Below are positions 14,868 to 40,009 of a DNA stretch of 64,000 bases, one piece after another. Under the pieces are notes generated by a model. That model did not search any database. It worked only from the letters and a program-made list of their open reading frames with translations, and was not told where the DNA came from. Each line of letters begins with the position of its first letter. Position 1 is the first letter of the stretch. The DNA comes from Pyrenophora tritici-repentis (taxonomy: Eukaryota > Ascomycota > Dothideomycetes > Pleosporales > Pleosporaceae), in contig NC_089396.1 of NCBI RefSeq assembly GCF_003171515.1, positions 2,108,001 to 2,172,000 on the forward strand, in the 5' to 3' direction. Position numbers and translations under genes: made by a program.

Positions 14868-14893
14868 ACTCACCTTACTGATCTTAATCTACA

Positions 14894-16546
14894 ATGGCTC
14901 AACGCAGCGCTACTCAATTACTATCAAATGAAGCAGATATTCAGCTTGCTATCTCATCTATTAATGCGCACCAGATCCAAGGTACCCGTACTGCTGCAGT
15001 AGTCTACAACGTAGCCGAAACAACGCTCCGCCGCCGACGCGCTGGTATACCTGCCCGACGCGATTGCCCGCCCAACTCAAGGAAGCTTACCCAGAGAGAA
15101 GAGGAGGTGATTATTAGCTATATACTTCAGCTAGATCTGCGTGGATTTGCGCCTACCTACACAGCTGTACGTGATATGGCTGATAAGCTGCTGGCTGCGC
15201 GTGGTGGAGAGCAGGTTGGAGTCAACTGGCCATCTACCTTTGTTAAGCGTACAGACAGTCTTCGGACGTGTTTCAACCAAGCGTACGATAGGCAGAGAGC
15301 TCTTTGTGAGGATGCAACATTAATAAAGAGGTGGTTTAAGCTTGTAGAAGAGACAAAGGCTGAGCTAGGTATCTGCGATGAGGACGTCTACAACTTTGAT
15401 GAAGCTGGCTTTATGATGGGCAAGATTACAACGCAGCTAGTTATAACAGGAGCAGAGAGGAGAGGCAGGCCGAAGAGTATTCAGCCAGGCAATCGCGAGT
15501 GGGTAACGCTGATCGCTGCTATCAGCGCTGCTGGCTGGTCAGTCCCACCGTTCCTCATCTTCGCTGGCCAGTACCACCTATCAGCCTGGTATAAGGAAGC
15601 TGAGATCCCACGCGACTGGGCGATCGCAGTCAGCGATAATGGCTGGACGAATAATGAGCTTGGAGTTGAGTGGCTAAAGCACTTCAACGCTCACACGCAG
15701 GCTCGTAGTGTAGGCGCGCGTCGCCTGCTTATTATTGATGGCCATAAGAGCCACCAATCTCTAGAGTTCCAGGAGCTCTGCAAGGAGAACAATATCCATA
15801 CGCTCTGTATGCCTCCTCACTCATCTCACCTACTCCAGCCACTTGATGTTGGCTGCTTCTCGCCATTGAAGCGCGCGTACAGCCGTGAGGTAGAGAGCCT
15901 TATGCGCAACCACATCAACCACATCACCAAGCTAGAGTTTCTGCCAGCGTTCAAGGCAGCATTTGATCAAGCGTTCACGCCAGCCAATATCTGCTCAGCC
16001 TTCCGCGGCGCAGGCCTTGTTCCTCTACAACCAGAGGCTGTTCTATCAAAGGTAGATGTACAACTGCGTACACCTACTCCTCCAGCAGCTCTGCCAGAGG
16101 CTCCCTGGGTAGCTCAAACGCCGAGCAACGCGCGTGAGCTTGAGGCTCAGTCAAGCCTAATACGTGAGCGCGTGCGCCAGCACAAGAGCTCATCACCAGC
16201 TTCAATTATTATGGCGATTGACCAGCTAAAGAAGGGCGCCGAGGTGATGATGCTCTCTGCTGAGCTGATGCGCGATCGGATCTCTAGTCTTGAGAAGGCC
16301 AATAGCGCAGCCTCAGAGCGTAGGCGGCGCTCTAAAAGGCGTATACAGAAGCATGGAGTACTCACAAAGGGAGCTGGAGAGGACATACTGGCTCAAAATG
16401 AGGCTGACCAGCAGATTGCTCATGAAGAGCGTCAAGGAGGAGCGCGATCAGGCCTCAGCCAGCGGGCTCAAAGGCGCTGCACTAGGTGCAAGGAGACTGG
16501 GCACAACTCGCGCACATGCAAGACTGATACTATTAATATAGAGTAA
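14894..16546 (+). CDS. Transposase, Fot1/pogo family (DDD)
   Basis: A single frame of 550 residues. The N-terminal about 130 residues are the helix-turn-helix/CENP-B-like DNA-binding part ([16 protein letters not shown], then [12 protein letters not shown]). The DDE_1 nuclease core has the first Asp in YNFDEAGF, the second in [10 protein letters not shown] and the third in LLQPLDVG, a DDD triad as in pogo/Fot elements. The C terminus holds a coiled, basic stretch and ends in a zinc knuckle, [14 protein letters not shown] (CX2CX4HX4C). All catalytic residues are present and there is no stop, so the protein may be functional. Confidence 0.95.
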
Positions 16547-36890: not shown

Positions 36891-38718
36891 TGTTGTGATG
36901 TTTCTGCTGTTCTAGTGTTTCGCGACAGGCAATTGGATATTGGAACGCGTAAATGTAATGCAGCGAAAGAAATTGGTTTGAGACGCGACTTGATTGTTTG
37001 TGGTAGGAACTGCGGAGGGTCGGAACGTCACAATGTAGTCAGCACGTCAGGCGTGCGCAGCCACGATCGGCCCTCTCACCCCAACTGCGGGTCGCGTGAA
37101 ACTCTTTTACCTGAAATAAAGTTGGACTATCATCAGCTTTACCTGTCGTAAACATGAGAAGAACCGCAGTAACCACATCGCATCACCAAACGATAAGCCA
37201 TGAATACTAGATCACGATGTTCGCAATATGAACATACTCTAGTGTCTAGTTCTCCCGATCCTACCATCAAGACGGCCACTATCCAATACCTTCGAAAACC
37301 CCTTTGGTTCTGTGAACCTTGACATTCGATTTTCAATTCTCATTGCGGAAACAAAGCTTCTTGTCGCGAATCTCAACCACATGTTCCTATTTCACCGTCA
37401 TCCACAATATTAATTTCCATTCTCGACGCAGCATATTTAACATCATTCATTACCTCCTCCATACTTCGGTAACGATAGTTTAAGGCAACAGTCAATGCCG
37501 AATTCAATCTTGCGTCTTCAAAATGGTCAGGTCATGGTTGGTATGACGACGACGTTGCAAAGTTGTTGCTCATGAGAGGTTTGACAAACACAACCCAGTG
37601 GTATCTGAGAGAAGAATTCTGTTAGAGCGAATATGCTCAAAAAAAAGCACATACTGACAGGTCTTCCTTCACGCATCGATGTACCCATTCTCCAGCCAAG
37701 GTATCATCACCGACGGTACCGTGGAAGATGAGTTTACCTTCTATCCAGGGAAAATGTAGATACGCGCCATCTTCCTCGCTTCACTTCATATCGTGTCCAG
37801 ATGGGTAGGGATCATAAGGTGGAGCACGCTCTCTTCTGTTCTCTGTTCCTTGGGAAGATTCCATCGTCGTTGCAATCATTGTCGATTTCCGGTGCGGCGG
37901 CGCAGATGAAAACAGTGATTGCGAAAGACAAGTCTGACCGTAGTCAAACCAGCCTTTGCAGAATTTTCTGTAGAATCGGATCGTGAATGGGCGAAGGTGA
38001 GATCTGAGAGAACTTGTACGTCCCGGCCTTGCTCTTGGGTCGGGGAAGTCGTCATAGTATTTTATCAATACATGCTCTTACCATCTTTGCGTGGGAGGAC
38101 AACTCCATGTTCAAATAATCGCACTAAAATTGCCAGGAGTATTTGAGTTCCCTACTCGATTTTGCTGGACTGGAATATGCTCTTCGGGAAACGAAAGAAC
38201 AAGTTCTCAAGGCGGACGTGGTGCTGGTAATTCCGATGATAGGAATGAGTCCACGTCTACGGCGGGGAGGGGGCGGAGGTTTCGTAAAGAAGATCAATGT
38301 TACAGTGGCAAAGATGTCTTCAATGCGAAAATATGAAGTTATTGAGAAGCAGCATGTACGGGCGAACAGTATAGGCATAAGATCCCTAGATTCAACACCC
38401 TGTACTAGGCTGCCTGCTGCCTGCGATAAGTGGTTATTAAGAGTCGTCTCCATCACGAAAAGATACCACATTTAACCAAACTCCCTCTAAAACTCCCGGC
38501 CACCATGCACTCCCGTCAGAAATACCACGTTCCTCGTAACCCCGCCCCTAAGTTCAGAAGGGTAAAGGCGTCATGCACTTCCAGGGCCCTAAGCGAAACC
38601 TGCAAGTACCCCACCCCACACCCACCCTCCCTCACCCTCACGCACAAATCCTATTTCTAACAACATATACCAACTCATTATTTAATCTTCCATCAATCAC
38701 GTGAATAACCATTCATCA
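36891..38718. other. Intergenic, 1.8 kb
   Basis: No gene supported. Weak frames at 37781-38068 (minus) and 38143-38475 (plus) have no family feature. The left end is the AT-hook gene promoter, and the right end is the 5' flank of the tRNA gene. Confidence 0.4.
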
Positions 38719-38860
38719 GCATCGGTGGTTTAGTGGTAAAATTAGCCGTTGCCATCCGTATAGGACAGTTTCGGCTAGCCCCGGGTTCGGTAAGCTTGCA
38801 CTCCACCATTGTCCATTCGATTCAGCATCCTAACAATTATTCAGATTCCCGGCCGATGCA
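38719..38860 (+). tRNA. tRNA-Gly (GCC) with an anticodon-loop intron and a second insertion in the T-loop
   Basis: Acceptor arm GCATCGG (38719-38725) pairs with CCGATGC (38853-38859), discriminator A at 38860. D arm GTTT-AGTGGTA-AAAT at 38728-38742. Anticodon stem AGCCG (38744-38748) pairs with CGGCT (38772-38776), anticodon GCC at 38751-38753. A 16-nt intron (38755-38770) sits after position 37, the canonical place. T stem CCGGG (38081+700: 38781-38785) pairs with CCCGG (38848-38852). The T loop is TTCG, then 55 extra nt (38790-38844), then ATT. Without both insertions the RNA is 71 nt, normal for tRNA-Gly, with every stem paired. The A box is intact (TGGTTTAGTGG). The B box is interrupted after GGTTCG. 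Confidence 0.85.
38790..38844 (+). other. Spliceosomal-intron-like insertion inside the tRNA T-loop
   Basis: The 55 nt begin GTAAGC, contain CCTAAC at 38829-38834 and end TTCAG. Donor, branch site and acceptor match the pattern of this window's protein-gene introns, and 55 nt is within their 44-62 nt range. Precise removal joins TTCG to ATTCCCGG and restores TTCGATT, the standard T loop. It also contains TTCGATTC (38816-38823), which resembles the core of a Pol III B box. Confidence 0.8.
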
Positions 38861-38877
38861 ATCCATCACTCAGATTC

Positions 38878-38884
38878 TTTTTTT
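38878..38884 (+). terminator. Pol III terminator (T7) of the tRNA gene
   Basis: Seven consecutive T on the sense strand, 18 nt after the tRNA end, a standard Pol III stop signal. It supports the locus being a Pol III unit. Confidence 0.75.
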
Positions 38885-40009
38885 GCTGCTGCGGAGACGT
38901 TAAGCATTGACATATAAACAGCTACTCACTAAACCTTTTTTGTATTCGAGGTGTTGTAGAAGCACTTTAGTTTTTTGTACATCTTGTTAAGAATAGATCT
39001 GTCGGTAAAATTCCCTCGAGGTTATTATCTCCCTCAACTTCGTATCCCTTGCCAGACAGGAAAGTCATCACGGCAGTTTGAACTTCCTCTGCTGAGTTAT
39101 ATCTAACGCCCTAGCATTTGTTCCCTAGTTCGCGCATACACTTTCTCTCCAGCGGCAGCCATTCTGTGTGCACCATACCAGCGATCTCTTGTGTAGATAT
39201 GTCTTTCAATTGCTCTTCAGGCCAAGTGCAGTTCGTGAGCTGAAGAATCGCACATCCAAACTAGAACATATCTGTTTGCTTGGTCACATCACGAATGGTA
39301 TTTCCGGGAGCAAACCACTATCTAGTGGCATAATGATAACATTTGATAAGCCGGTGATCCCTTGACCGACTCCGAAACCCAGCGTTTATGAAGTCAACTG
39401 GAGAAAGAGTAAGTTCGGAAAAGAGCGAGCATTGATCTGGCTCTCCAAAGATTATCATCTCGTTAATTCGCATCTTCGGAATCGTCGGACAGGTGGGTAG
39501 GGTTCATGGACAAACATTACTGAGTCTCATTCTAGCTCTGTAGCCTCAATTCAACCTAGACTAGAGCTAGATTCTAGGTGTCTTGTAGGTACAGGTTCTG
39601 GCCATTTTGTTGTGGTTGGAGATGAACGATTTCGAAGCGGGTTCGTGCTGATTCTAGAAGGTATTGCGTGCTGCTATCACCTTCTTCCACACGATACATT
39701 GTTCTTGTCGCTGCCCGTTATGACGCAGTAGCATGTTGGAGAGTCTTTCACGTCTCTCCCTCAATGCAATTACGCCCATAGCTCACCACGCCTTTCCACG
39801 CACTATCATCGGTCTGAAATATTACATCTGTAACATGTTCAGTGAAGTGAGGAATTACATAGATCACCCTGCTGCCTGTGTGCAGTATTTCATTCACCGA
39901 ATTGTTTGCCACGCCTCCTACTACTCTCTTCCAGAATTGCAGAGAACCTCACCTCTCCATCATAACTAGACCGAACTACGACCCTCTCCTTCAACCCACC
40001 ACAACAAAG
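38885..40009. other. Intergenic, 1.1 kb
   Basis: No gene supported between the tRNA and the first Cys/His-rich gene. Confidence 0.4.

Follow-up and report, generated by a model that had tools for sequence, protein, structure and literature searches.

In textbook accounts, nuclear tRNA introns adjoin the anticodon and a protein endonuclease excises them; the known classes of tRNA intron are endonuclease-type, group I and group II. The ectopic introns of Cyanidioschyzon merolae are of the bulge-helix-bulge (BHB) type. In the tRNA-Ile(UAU) of that species, introns are placed at positions 12/13, 53/54 and 37/38, and those in the D and T arms are supposed to leave before the anticodon intron (PMC9602550). 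Archaeal tRNA genes have noncanonical introns outside 37/38, with two or three per gene in some, and a search for such introns in archaea is described for tRNAscan-SE 2.0 (both from PMC8450103). In Schizosaccharomyces pombe, the U6 RNA, a product of RNA polymerase III (Pol III), contains an intron removed by the spliceosome (PMC8917221), and this intron is reported to contain a B box in the title of Frendewey et al. 1990 (cited in PMC10484740). A 2026 review contrasts tRNA splicing by protein enzymes with the spliceosome (PMC13149111), and spliceosomal introns in nuclear tRNA genes appeared in no title or abstract of the open-access literature searched, a scope that excluded subscription papers and preprints. 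The stretch analysed here (the window) comprises 64,000 nt of Pyrenophora tritici-repentis (Pleosporaceae, Dothideomycetes; assembly GCF_003171515.1, contig NC_089396.1, positions 2,108,001 to 2,172,000) and contains a tRNA-Gly(GCC) gene that is split in its T loop by an intron with spliceosomal-type signals and belongs to a genome-wide class of tRNA genes with such introns. The sequences argue, with a probability of roughly 0.9, that these are functional Pol III tRNA genes with U2-type introns of ~55 nt, the precursors of which would need both the spliceosome and tRNA endonuclease.

Compared with these systems, the genes described here share with S. pombe U6 a spliceosomal-type intron in a probable Pol III gene; the B-box match that the title cited above reports for the U6 intron has a possible counterpart in the B-box-like element of some introns here. 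The genes here differ in that U6 is a part of the spliceosome, whereas the hosts here are tRNA genes of many families with introns at nine positions, and in that the intron here breaks up a B box which its host gene already has and would supply a substitute. With C. merolae they share ectopic D- and T-arm introns in nuclear tRNA genes, whereas the introns here have spliceosomal signals, a uniform length and no BHB. Archaeal noncanonical introns likewise lie outside 37/38 and may be multiple in one gene, with BHB models there and no BHB here. Canonical nuclear tRNA introns at 37/38 are present in many of the same genes, including the window gene, and differ from the insertions described here, all of which lie away from the anticodon loop at positions from 8/9 to 59/60, not only in their site but also in length class, in signals and in the enzyme presumed to act. 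Among tRNA introns the present class would be new; its mechanism would have a true precedent in the U6 intron.

Direct reading of 38719-38860 in the window confirmed the initial annotation, which had described a tRNA-Gly(GCC) gene with two insertions, the second located at 57/58 and carrying GTAAGC, CCTAAC and TTCAG. ARAGORN called no tRNA in the unspliced 38719-38860 or in the raw 64-kb window, and called tRNA-Gly(GCC) with a 16-nt anticodon intron after 38790-38844 (55 nt) had been removed. With both insertions taken out, a complete cloverleaf with anticodon GCC was obtained, as expected of a functional tRNA-Gly(GCC), and the exons were complete, with none of the decay or truncation that marks a pseudogene. 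To see whether such a gene could turn up by chance, the window was scanned mechanically: each GT[AGT]NG...CT[AG]A[CT]...AG candidate of 45-75 nt was removed singly on both strands, followed by tRNA calling. Removal of 169 candidates with real splice signals recovered exactly one tRNA, the Gly(GCC) above, and no tRNA was recovered with four control sets of altered signals (156, 196, 227 and 396 candidates). No Rfam family reached its gathering threshold anywhere in the window; a permissive Rfam search of 38600-39000 had a chance snoRNA match as its sole outcome. The coordinates are listed in Table 1.

The genome survey was performed on one assembly (40.9 Mb, 41 contigs). BLAST with the window gene returned six tRNA-Gly(GCC) genes with identical mature parts. 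Three of them are intact; the other three are split at one and the same T-loop bond, each by an intron of its own. A T-loop intron pattern gave 6 matches genome-wide (three Gly, two Glu(CTC) and one Asp(GTC)) against 0 in the reversed control, and no match in one scan of viral contigs. A looser pattern gave 14 matches against 114 (58 + 56) in the reversed control; 7 of the 14 were tRNA genes, tRNA-Pro(CGG) being added in this way, and the remaining seven (L043-L045, L047-L050) gave no tRNA at the matched place after candidate introns had been removed. Two of the interrupted Gly(GCC) genes stand on other contigs with a different intron at the same T-loop site, and the tRNA-Glu, -Asp and -Pro genes are likewise interrupted there, which excludes misassembly, a caveat of the initial annotation, as a general explanation. 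That annotation was right for the window gene and overlooked both the genome-wide class and the intronic B-box-like element described below.

A pattern of B box plus terminator gave 352 matches against 156 in the control. Among the first 100 matches listed, contig C1 and the first 1.45 Mb of C2 were sampled, and 25 regions (L084-L108) were read, excluding places already read, repeats and places that did not resemble tRNA 3' ends. Interrupted tRNA genes were present in five of these (L084, L096, L097, L100 and L101), and nine (L085, L087, L091, L094, L102, L104-L106 and L108) gave no tRNA even after splice removal. BLAST with mature tRNAs of the genome itself followed, since 11 yeast and Neurospora tRNAs had given a match for Phe only; its first two rounds covered 30 candidates and give lower bounds. 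Sampling and BLAST brought interrupted genes for Tyr, Ala, Glu(TTC), Gln, Ser, Lys and Arg. The resulting catalogue held 26 introns in 24 genes, and with a tRNA-Ile(TAT) gene found separately there were at least 27 introns in at least 25 genes, at nine positions from 8/9 to 59/60 (Table 1). At the fetched nuclear loci of this non-exhaustive survey, with queries for part of the isotypes, ARAGORN gave 55 tRNA genes without such an intron, that is, 60 calls minus five mis-calls on interrupted genes (L059, L071, L084, L128 and L129), a repeat resembling a short interspersed element (SINE) also being dropped. Uninterrupted copies also exist for Gly, Glu(CTC), Ala, Ser(AGA), Ser(GCT), Gln, Lys and Pro. 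The four Glu(CTC) genes (L038, L041, L071/L110 and L067/L109) include two with introns at 8/9 and 57/58, one with the 8/9 intron alone and one with neither.

Position numbers within the D loop were assigned by us. Owing to the anticodon intron, ARAGORN named the spliced genes at L114 and L100 Lys, that at L116 Ser and those at L140 and L141 Cys; Pro(CGG), Gln(CTG) and Arg(ACG) were named by placing the canonical intron after position 37, Pro and Gln also by their uninterrupted siblings, and L142 was named Arg(ACG) by ARAGORN itself. Two tandem pairs, in each of which both genes have spliceosomal-type introns, were observed: Arg(ACG) followed by Gly(GCC) at 13 nt (L116) and Ser(GCT) followed by Ser(AGA) at 17 nt (L101). 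Each is a possible two-tRNA transcript.

Decisive were four families for which only interrupted genes were found. Mature Tyr, Glu(TTC), Asp and Arg(ACG) were used as queries in a genome-wide search by exon similarity with no splice signals in the query, and all nine candidates were scored. Every gene found was interrupted (Tyr 3/3, Asp 1/1, Glu(TTC) 1/1, Arg(ACG) 4/4): the three Tyr genes matched the query solely from the D loop onward and the Glu(TTC) gene solely from the D arm onward, the Asp gene was split within the T loop, and the match of the four Arg(ACG) genes ended at nucleotide 55 of the query. At the sensitivity of this search, no intact nuclear gene for Tyr, Asp, Glu(TTC) or Arg(ACG) was present in the assembly. 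A cell without tRNA-Tyr or tRNA-Asp is inviable; because all the genes found in the four families are interrupted, the introns would have to be removed for viability. Since genes of essential families carry the same signals, the window gene is expected to be functional as well, and it would be a working Pol III tRNA-Gly(GCC) gene, a function deduced from its class given the three intact siblings. Together with the intact exons, the divergence of the Gly(GCC) intron bodies and the retention of splice signals and promoter-like elements, these results strongly support the first of two possibilities raised by the initial annotation, that of a tRNA needing the spliceosome as well as tRNA endonuclease.

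Splice signals were compared across the catalogue. All 26 introns had GT..AG ends, a G at +5 and a pyrimidine (T or C) at +6. In each, the branch A of a CTAAC or CTAAT stood 9-17 nt before the intron end; lengths were 50-63 nt (median 55). Part of this agreement is by construction. The catalogue script accepted only GT and AG ends, and the search patterns fixed G at +5, with +3, +4 and +6 left free in all but the T-loop intron pattern; a CT[AG]A[CT] branch was a criterion in some searches, with the preference for CTAA and most of the distance unconstrained. This does not hold for the genes from the Gly BLAST and the own-tRNA BLAST, which had been detected through exon similarity only and whose intron boundaries are set by where the exons stop. 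The two features expected of U2-type introns, an extended 5' splice site and a branch consensus at the proper distance from the 3' end, were seen in 26/26. The mRNA-like length claimed at the outset agreed with the one comparison available, a 52-nt mRNA intron of the GH92 gene in the window (GTATGG..ACTAAC..CTAG, 43230-43179, minus strand), across which two reading frames join in a homologue alignment. The middles of paralogous introns at one position were within 2 standard deviations of shuffled sequence in 13 of 17 pairs.

The B-box core consensus is GGTTCGANTCC, and this core was also seen in intact tRNA genes of the genome. Introns at 55/56 or 57/58 split it (11 introns), and TTCGA was found in 10 of these 11 and in 0 of the 15 others (Fisher p 2e-6). 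As the word was picked after inspection, 500 shuffles were used as a guard: 0.44 occurrences were expected in shuffled middles, and no 5-mer occurred in more than 5 of the 11 introns. The next commonest 5-mer in the real set was present in 6/11. TTCGA lies 17 nt from the branch A in 7 introns and 15 nt in 3, and 22 to 30 nt from the 5' splice site; such fixed spacing to the branch A was never matched by random placement in 20000 trials. A genome search with the composite element gave 17 matches against 8 in the reversed control and recovered all ten founding introns; the 7 further matches included one tRNA, the Ile(TAT) gene, with a spacing of 17 nt, and the other six gave no tRNA. At 52/53 and 53/54 the B box is whole across the 3' junction (scores 15.6-16.5). 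In the window gene the junction B box is destroyed (score -3.1), and CATTCGATTCA within the intron reaches 5.5, intact boxes having a median of 15.6. An 11-position B-box matrix, which is weaker evidence than the TTCGA count, gave a combined p of 3e-5 for the 11 splitting introns.

The strongest competitor to a promoter role for this element, judged rather unlikely though with some weight, is that TTCGA is a relic of intron origin by T-loop duplication, or a splicing element. The word does copy T-loop sequence, and its low score as a full B box suits that view, as does the fixed spacing of 17 or 15 nt that separates it from the branch A, a constancy for which a plain B box has no need; and yet it is absent from 15/15 introns that leave the B-box core whole. 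No conservation was visible by eye in the 7-9 nt beside TTCGA, so shared ancestry by itself would not have preserved the word. The letters between TTCGA and the branch A in introns at 55/56, 57/58 and 59/60 (38816-38833 in the window gene, for example) likewise showed no conservation by eye.

A T-run (>=4) was present within 45 nt downstream of 23 of the 24 interrupted genes, beginning 3-18 nt behind the matched exon, and the sole gene without one was the first member of a tandem pair; together with the T7 run of the window gene, this is the terminator expected of type 2 Pol III genes. CATCAA was found within 60 nt upstream of 31/55 uninterrupted genes and of 11/21 interrupted ones, the 21 being those whose upstream sequence could be used, and in 2.6% of random window 60-mers. 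At three Arg loci the flank fell short of the length required; CATCAA was seen there by eye. These features bear on a second alternative, in which RNA polymerase II makes longer RNAs that are spliced like mRNA and from which the tRNAs are cut out later, Pol III being unused. The split of promoter boxes by many introns and the failure to find a replacement A box speak for it. Against it stand the T-runs so close behind the exons in 23/24 genes, the upstream CATCAA common to uninterrupted tRNA genes and the occurrence of replacement B-box-like elements solely where the B-box core is split, and we consider it improbable.

Junctions were further examined for BHB structures, with a 4-bp central helix between two 3-nt bulges and flanking helices as the criterion. 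In strict register none was found at the 27 junctions, the central helix having at most 2 of 4 pairs; a lenient count (best of 16 registers, 2-4 pairs, 3-4 in most) was non-discriminating, and the strict register was used instead. Removal by tRNA endonuclease, as in archaea and C. merolae, is consequently very improbable: the positions 12/13 and 53/54 beside 37/38 in tRNA-Ile(UAU) of C. merolae (PMC9602550) are close to those here, but such cleavage would leave GTNNG, CTAA[CT] and AG at mRNA-like spacing unexplained.

The notion that introns or other DNA were inserted into redundant tRNA copies and inactivated them, which the initial annotation had offered as a recent disabling insertion, is rejected for the class and is the least credible of all, for although three intact Gly(GCC) siblings could make the window gene alone dispensable, every Tyr, Asp, Glu(TTC) and Arg(ACG) gene found is interrupted, the Gly exons stayed identical while their introns diverged, splice signals (26/26) and T-runs (23/24 genes) were kept, and a genuine dead tRNA of this genome looks different, being truncated. 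The latter is a tRNA-Gly(TCC) pseudogene (L122, C1:1788412), located ~260 bases from an intact copy.

Several points weigh against the functional reading or parts of it. Intron likeness exceeded that of shuffled sequence in 4 of the 17 pairs (identities 0.67-0.74; one each for Gly, Glu 8/9, Arg and Ala), and some duplications are therefore recent. The search or the assembly could have missed a further Tyr or Asp gene that is intact but divergent. A TATA-like upstream motif was rarer in interrupted (8/21) than in uninterrupted genes (30/55), and where introns split the A box (8/9, 11/12 and 13/14) a replacement was looked for and none found. For the intronic element, the fixed 17/15-nt spacing has no explanation; one B-box-splitting intron, that of the gene termed Gly c, is without TTCGA. 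This gene lies 13 nt behind the Arg(ACG) gene termed Arg a and may share its transcript. With the 11-position matrix, intronic elements scored -1.4 to 11.7 bits, below most true B boxes (median 15.6, minimum 10.5), 6 of the 11 single-intron p values exceeded 0.05, the top-scoring site in Pro and Arg a differed from the TTCGA site, and the 15 other introns gave a combined p of 0.07.

Intact exons, splice signals, families found only interrupted, the B-box-like element, terminators and the absence of BHB are established at the level of the sequence. Beyond the sequence, we infer that Pol III transcribes the genes, that the spliceosome takes out the introns and that the steps follow one another as set out below. 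Pol III would transcribe the gene from its internal promoter through to the T-run. Where the B-box core is split, the intron would provide a replacement B-box-like element with the TTCGA core; an intron at 52/53 or 53/54 leaves the B box intact across the 3' splice junction. The spliceosome would then recognise the short intron (GTAAGY, CTAAC, AG) and remove it by the lariat pathway, after which tRNA endonuclease and ligase would take the anticodon intron from the restored tRNA body. Action of the spliceosome first is suggested by analogy, because the D and T introns of C. merolae supposedly leave first, and because human tRNA endonuclease recognises the mature body of pre-tRNA (PMC10539383).

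This sequence evidence makes it very probable that P. tritici-repentis needs the spliceosome to make many of its tRNAs and, through them, to translate. We lean, with less assurance, towards a stronger form, in which the spliceosome is an obligatory tRNA-processing machine on which Tyr, Asp, Glu(UUC), Arg(ACG) and perhaps Ile(UAU), other gene copies of which lay outside the search, depend, and in which T-loop introns unite a substitute TFIIIC B box with the branch site in one short segment. If so, all translation would depend on splicing of Pol III transcripts, and T-loop introns would be a specialised subclass in which the fixed distance between B box and branch couples the gene's transcription to its splicing. 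Such introns, which ARAGORN and the Rfam tRNA model passed over in the settings applied, would form one more class beside the endonuclease-type, group I and group II, and could account for isoacceptors missing in such fungi under standard tRNA finders. With ~3/10 of the tRNA genes read carrying mRNA-type introns, including the sole genes found for some amino acids, translation would be tied to the spliceosome and large-scale splicing of Pol III transcripts other than U6 would be shown. The genes would be a clean test case, provided by nature, for how introns are defined when cap, poly(A) tail and RNA polymerase II are all absent, and for how genes so short and constrained gain introns; the B-box-like element would be a way for an intron to invade an internal promoter and yet supply its replacement.

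Table 1. Features of the window tRNA-Gly(GCC) gene (window coordinates) and intron positions in interrupted tRNA genes of the genome (tRNA numbering).
Feature	Location	Strand	Basis or remark
CATCAA-bearing upstream CCATCAATCA; probable start-site or promoter element	38690..38699	+	motif common to many tRNA genes here
tRNA-Gly(GCC) exon 1, 5' end to position 37 (acceptor 5' strand, D arm, anticodon GCC)	38719..38754	+	same in 6/6 Gly(GCC) genes
Canonical anticodon-loop intron, 16 nt, after position 37, tRNA endonuclease type	38755..38770	+	ARAGORN
tRNA exon 2, positions 38 to 57, ending GGGTTCG	38771..38789	+	reading, ARAGORN, comparison of Gly(GCC) copies
Spliceosomal-type intron, 55 nt, T-loop 57/58	38790..38844	+	ARAGORN after removal, catalogue, window scan
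Intron 5' end GTAAGC	38790-38795	+	
Intronic TTCGA, core of B-box-like element ATTCGATTC	38816..38820	+	17 nt upstream of branch A
Branch-site CTAAC; branch A at 38833	38830..38834	+	branch A 11 nt from intron end
Intron 3' end TTCAG	up to 38844	+	
tRNA exon 3, positions 58 to 72 and discriminator A	38845..38860	+	reading, ARAGORN, comparison of Gly(GCC) copies
T7 run, Pol III-type terminator	38878..38884	+	direct reading
Gly(GCC), three genes	57/58		
Glu(CTC), two genes	8/9 and 57/58		
Glu(CTC), one gene	8/9		
Asp(GTC), one gene	57/58		
Pro(CGG), one gene	57/58		
Arg(ACG), four genes	55/56		
Ala(AGC), two genes	53/54		
Lys(CTT), one gene	52/53		
Tyr(GTA), three genes	20/20a		
Glu(TTC), one gene	13/14		
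Gln(CTG), one gene	11/12		
Ser(GCT), one gene	13/14		
Ser(AGA), two genes	13/14		
Ser(TGA), one gene	13/14		
Ile(TAT), one gene	59/60		found via composite intron element search, outside the 26-intron catalogue

U6 genes of the genome were also inspected. The complete copies (L077 and L078) have no intron, a third and a fourth match are degraded, and one region of the B box plus terminator sample (L107) holds U6. The complete intronless copy L077 (C2:1204189) is accompanied on the other strand, ~280 bases away, by a U6 copy with its 5' part replaced (L079, C2:1204566). A Pol III-like locus with CATCA, a GTTCGACCC box in a possible T-stem and a T8 run was noted at L108 (C2:1207000-1207900, minus strand), where ARAGORN called no tRNA whether introns were removed or not.

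Other genes of the window encode a GH32 protein with 78% identity to a Pyrenophora seminiperda protein and a coiled-coil protein with 97% identity over 82% of its length to a protein of P. teres f. teres 0-1, and an open reading frame with a DDE_1 transposase domain lies at 14891-16543 on the plus strand. Elsewhere in the genome, a tRNA-Arg(TCT)-like element of 84-86 nt was present at 19 places of equal score on many contigs, and the eight that were read (L058 and L060-L066 being among the places) were near identical, as in a SINE-like repeat. Contig C41 (183 kb) contains clusters of mitochondrial-type tRNAs, some apparently duplicated, and elongator tRNA-Met genes at L089, L134 and L135 have unusually long anticodon introns (31-48 nt).
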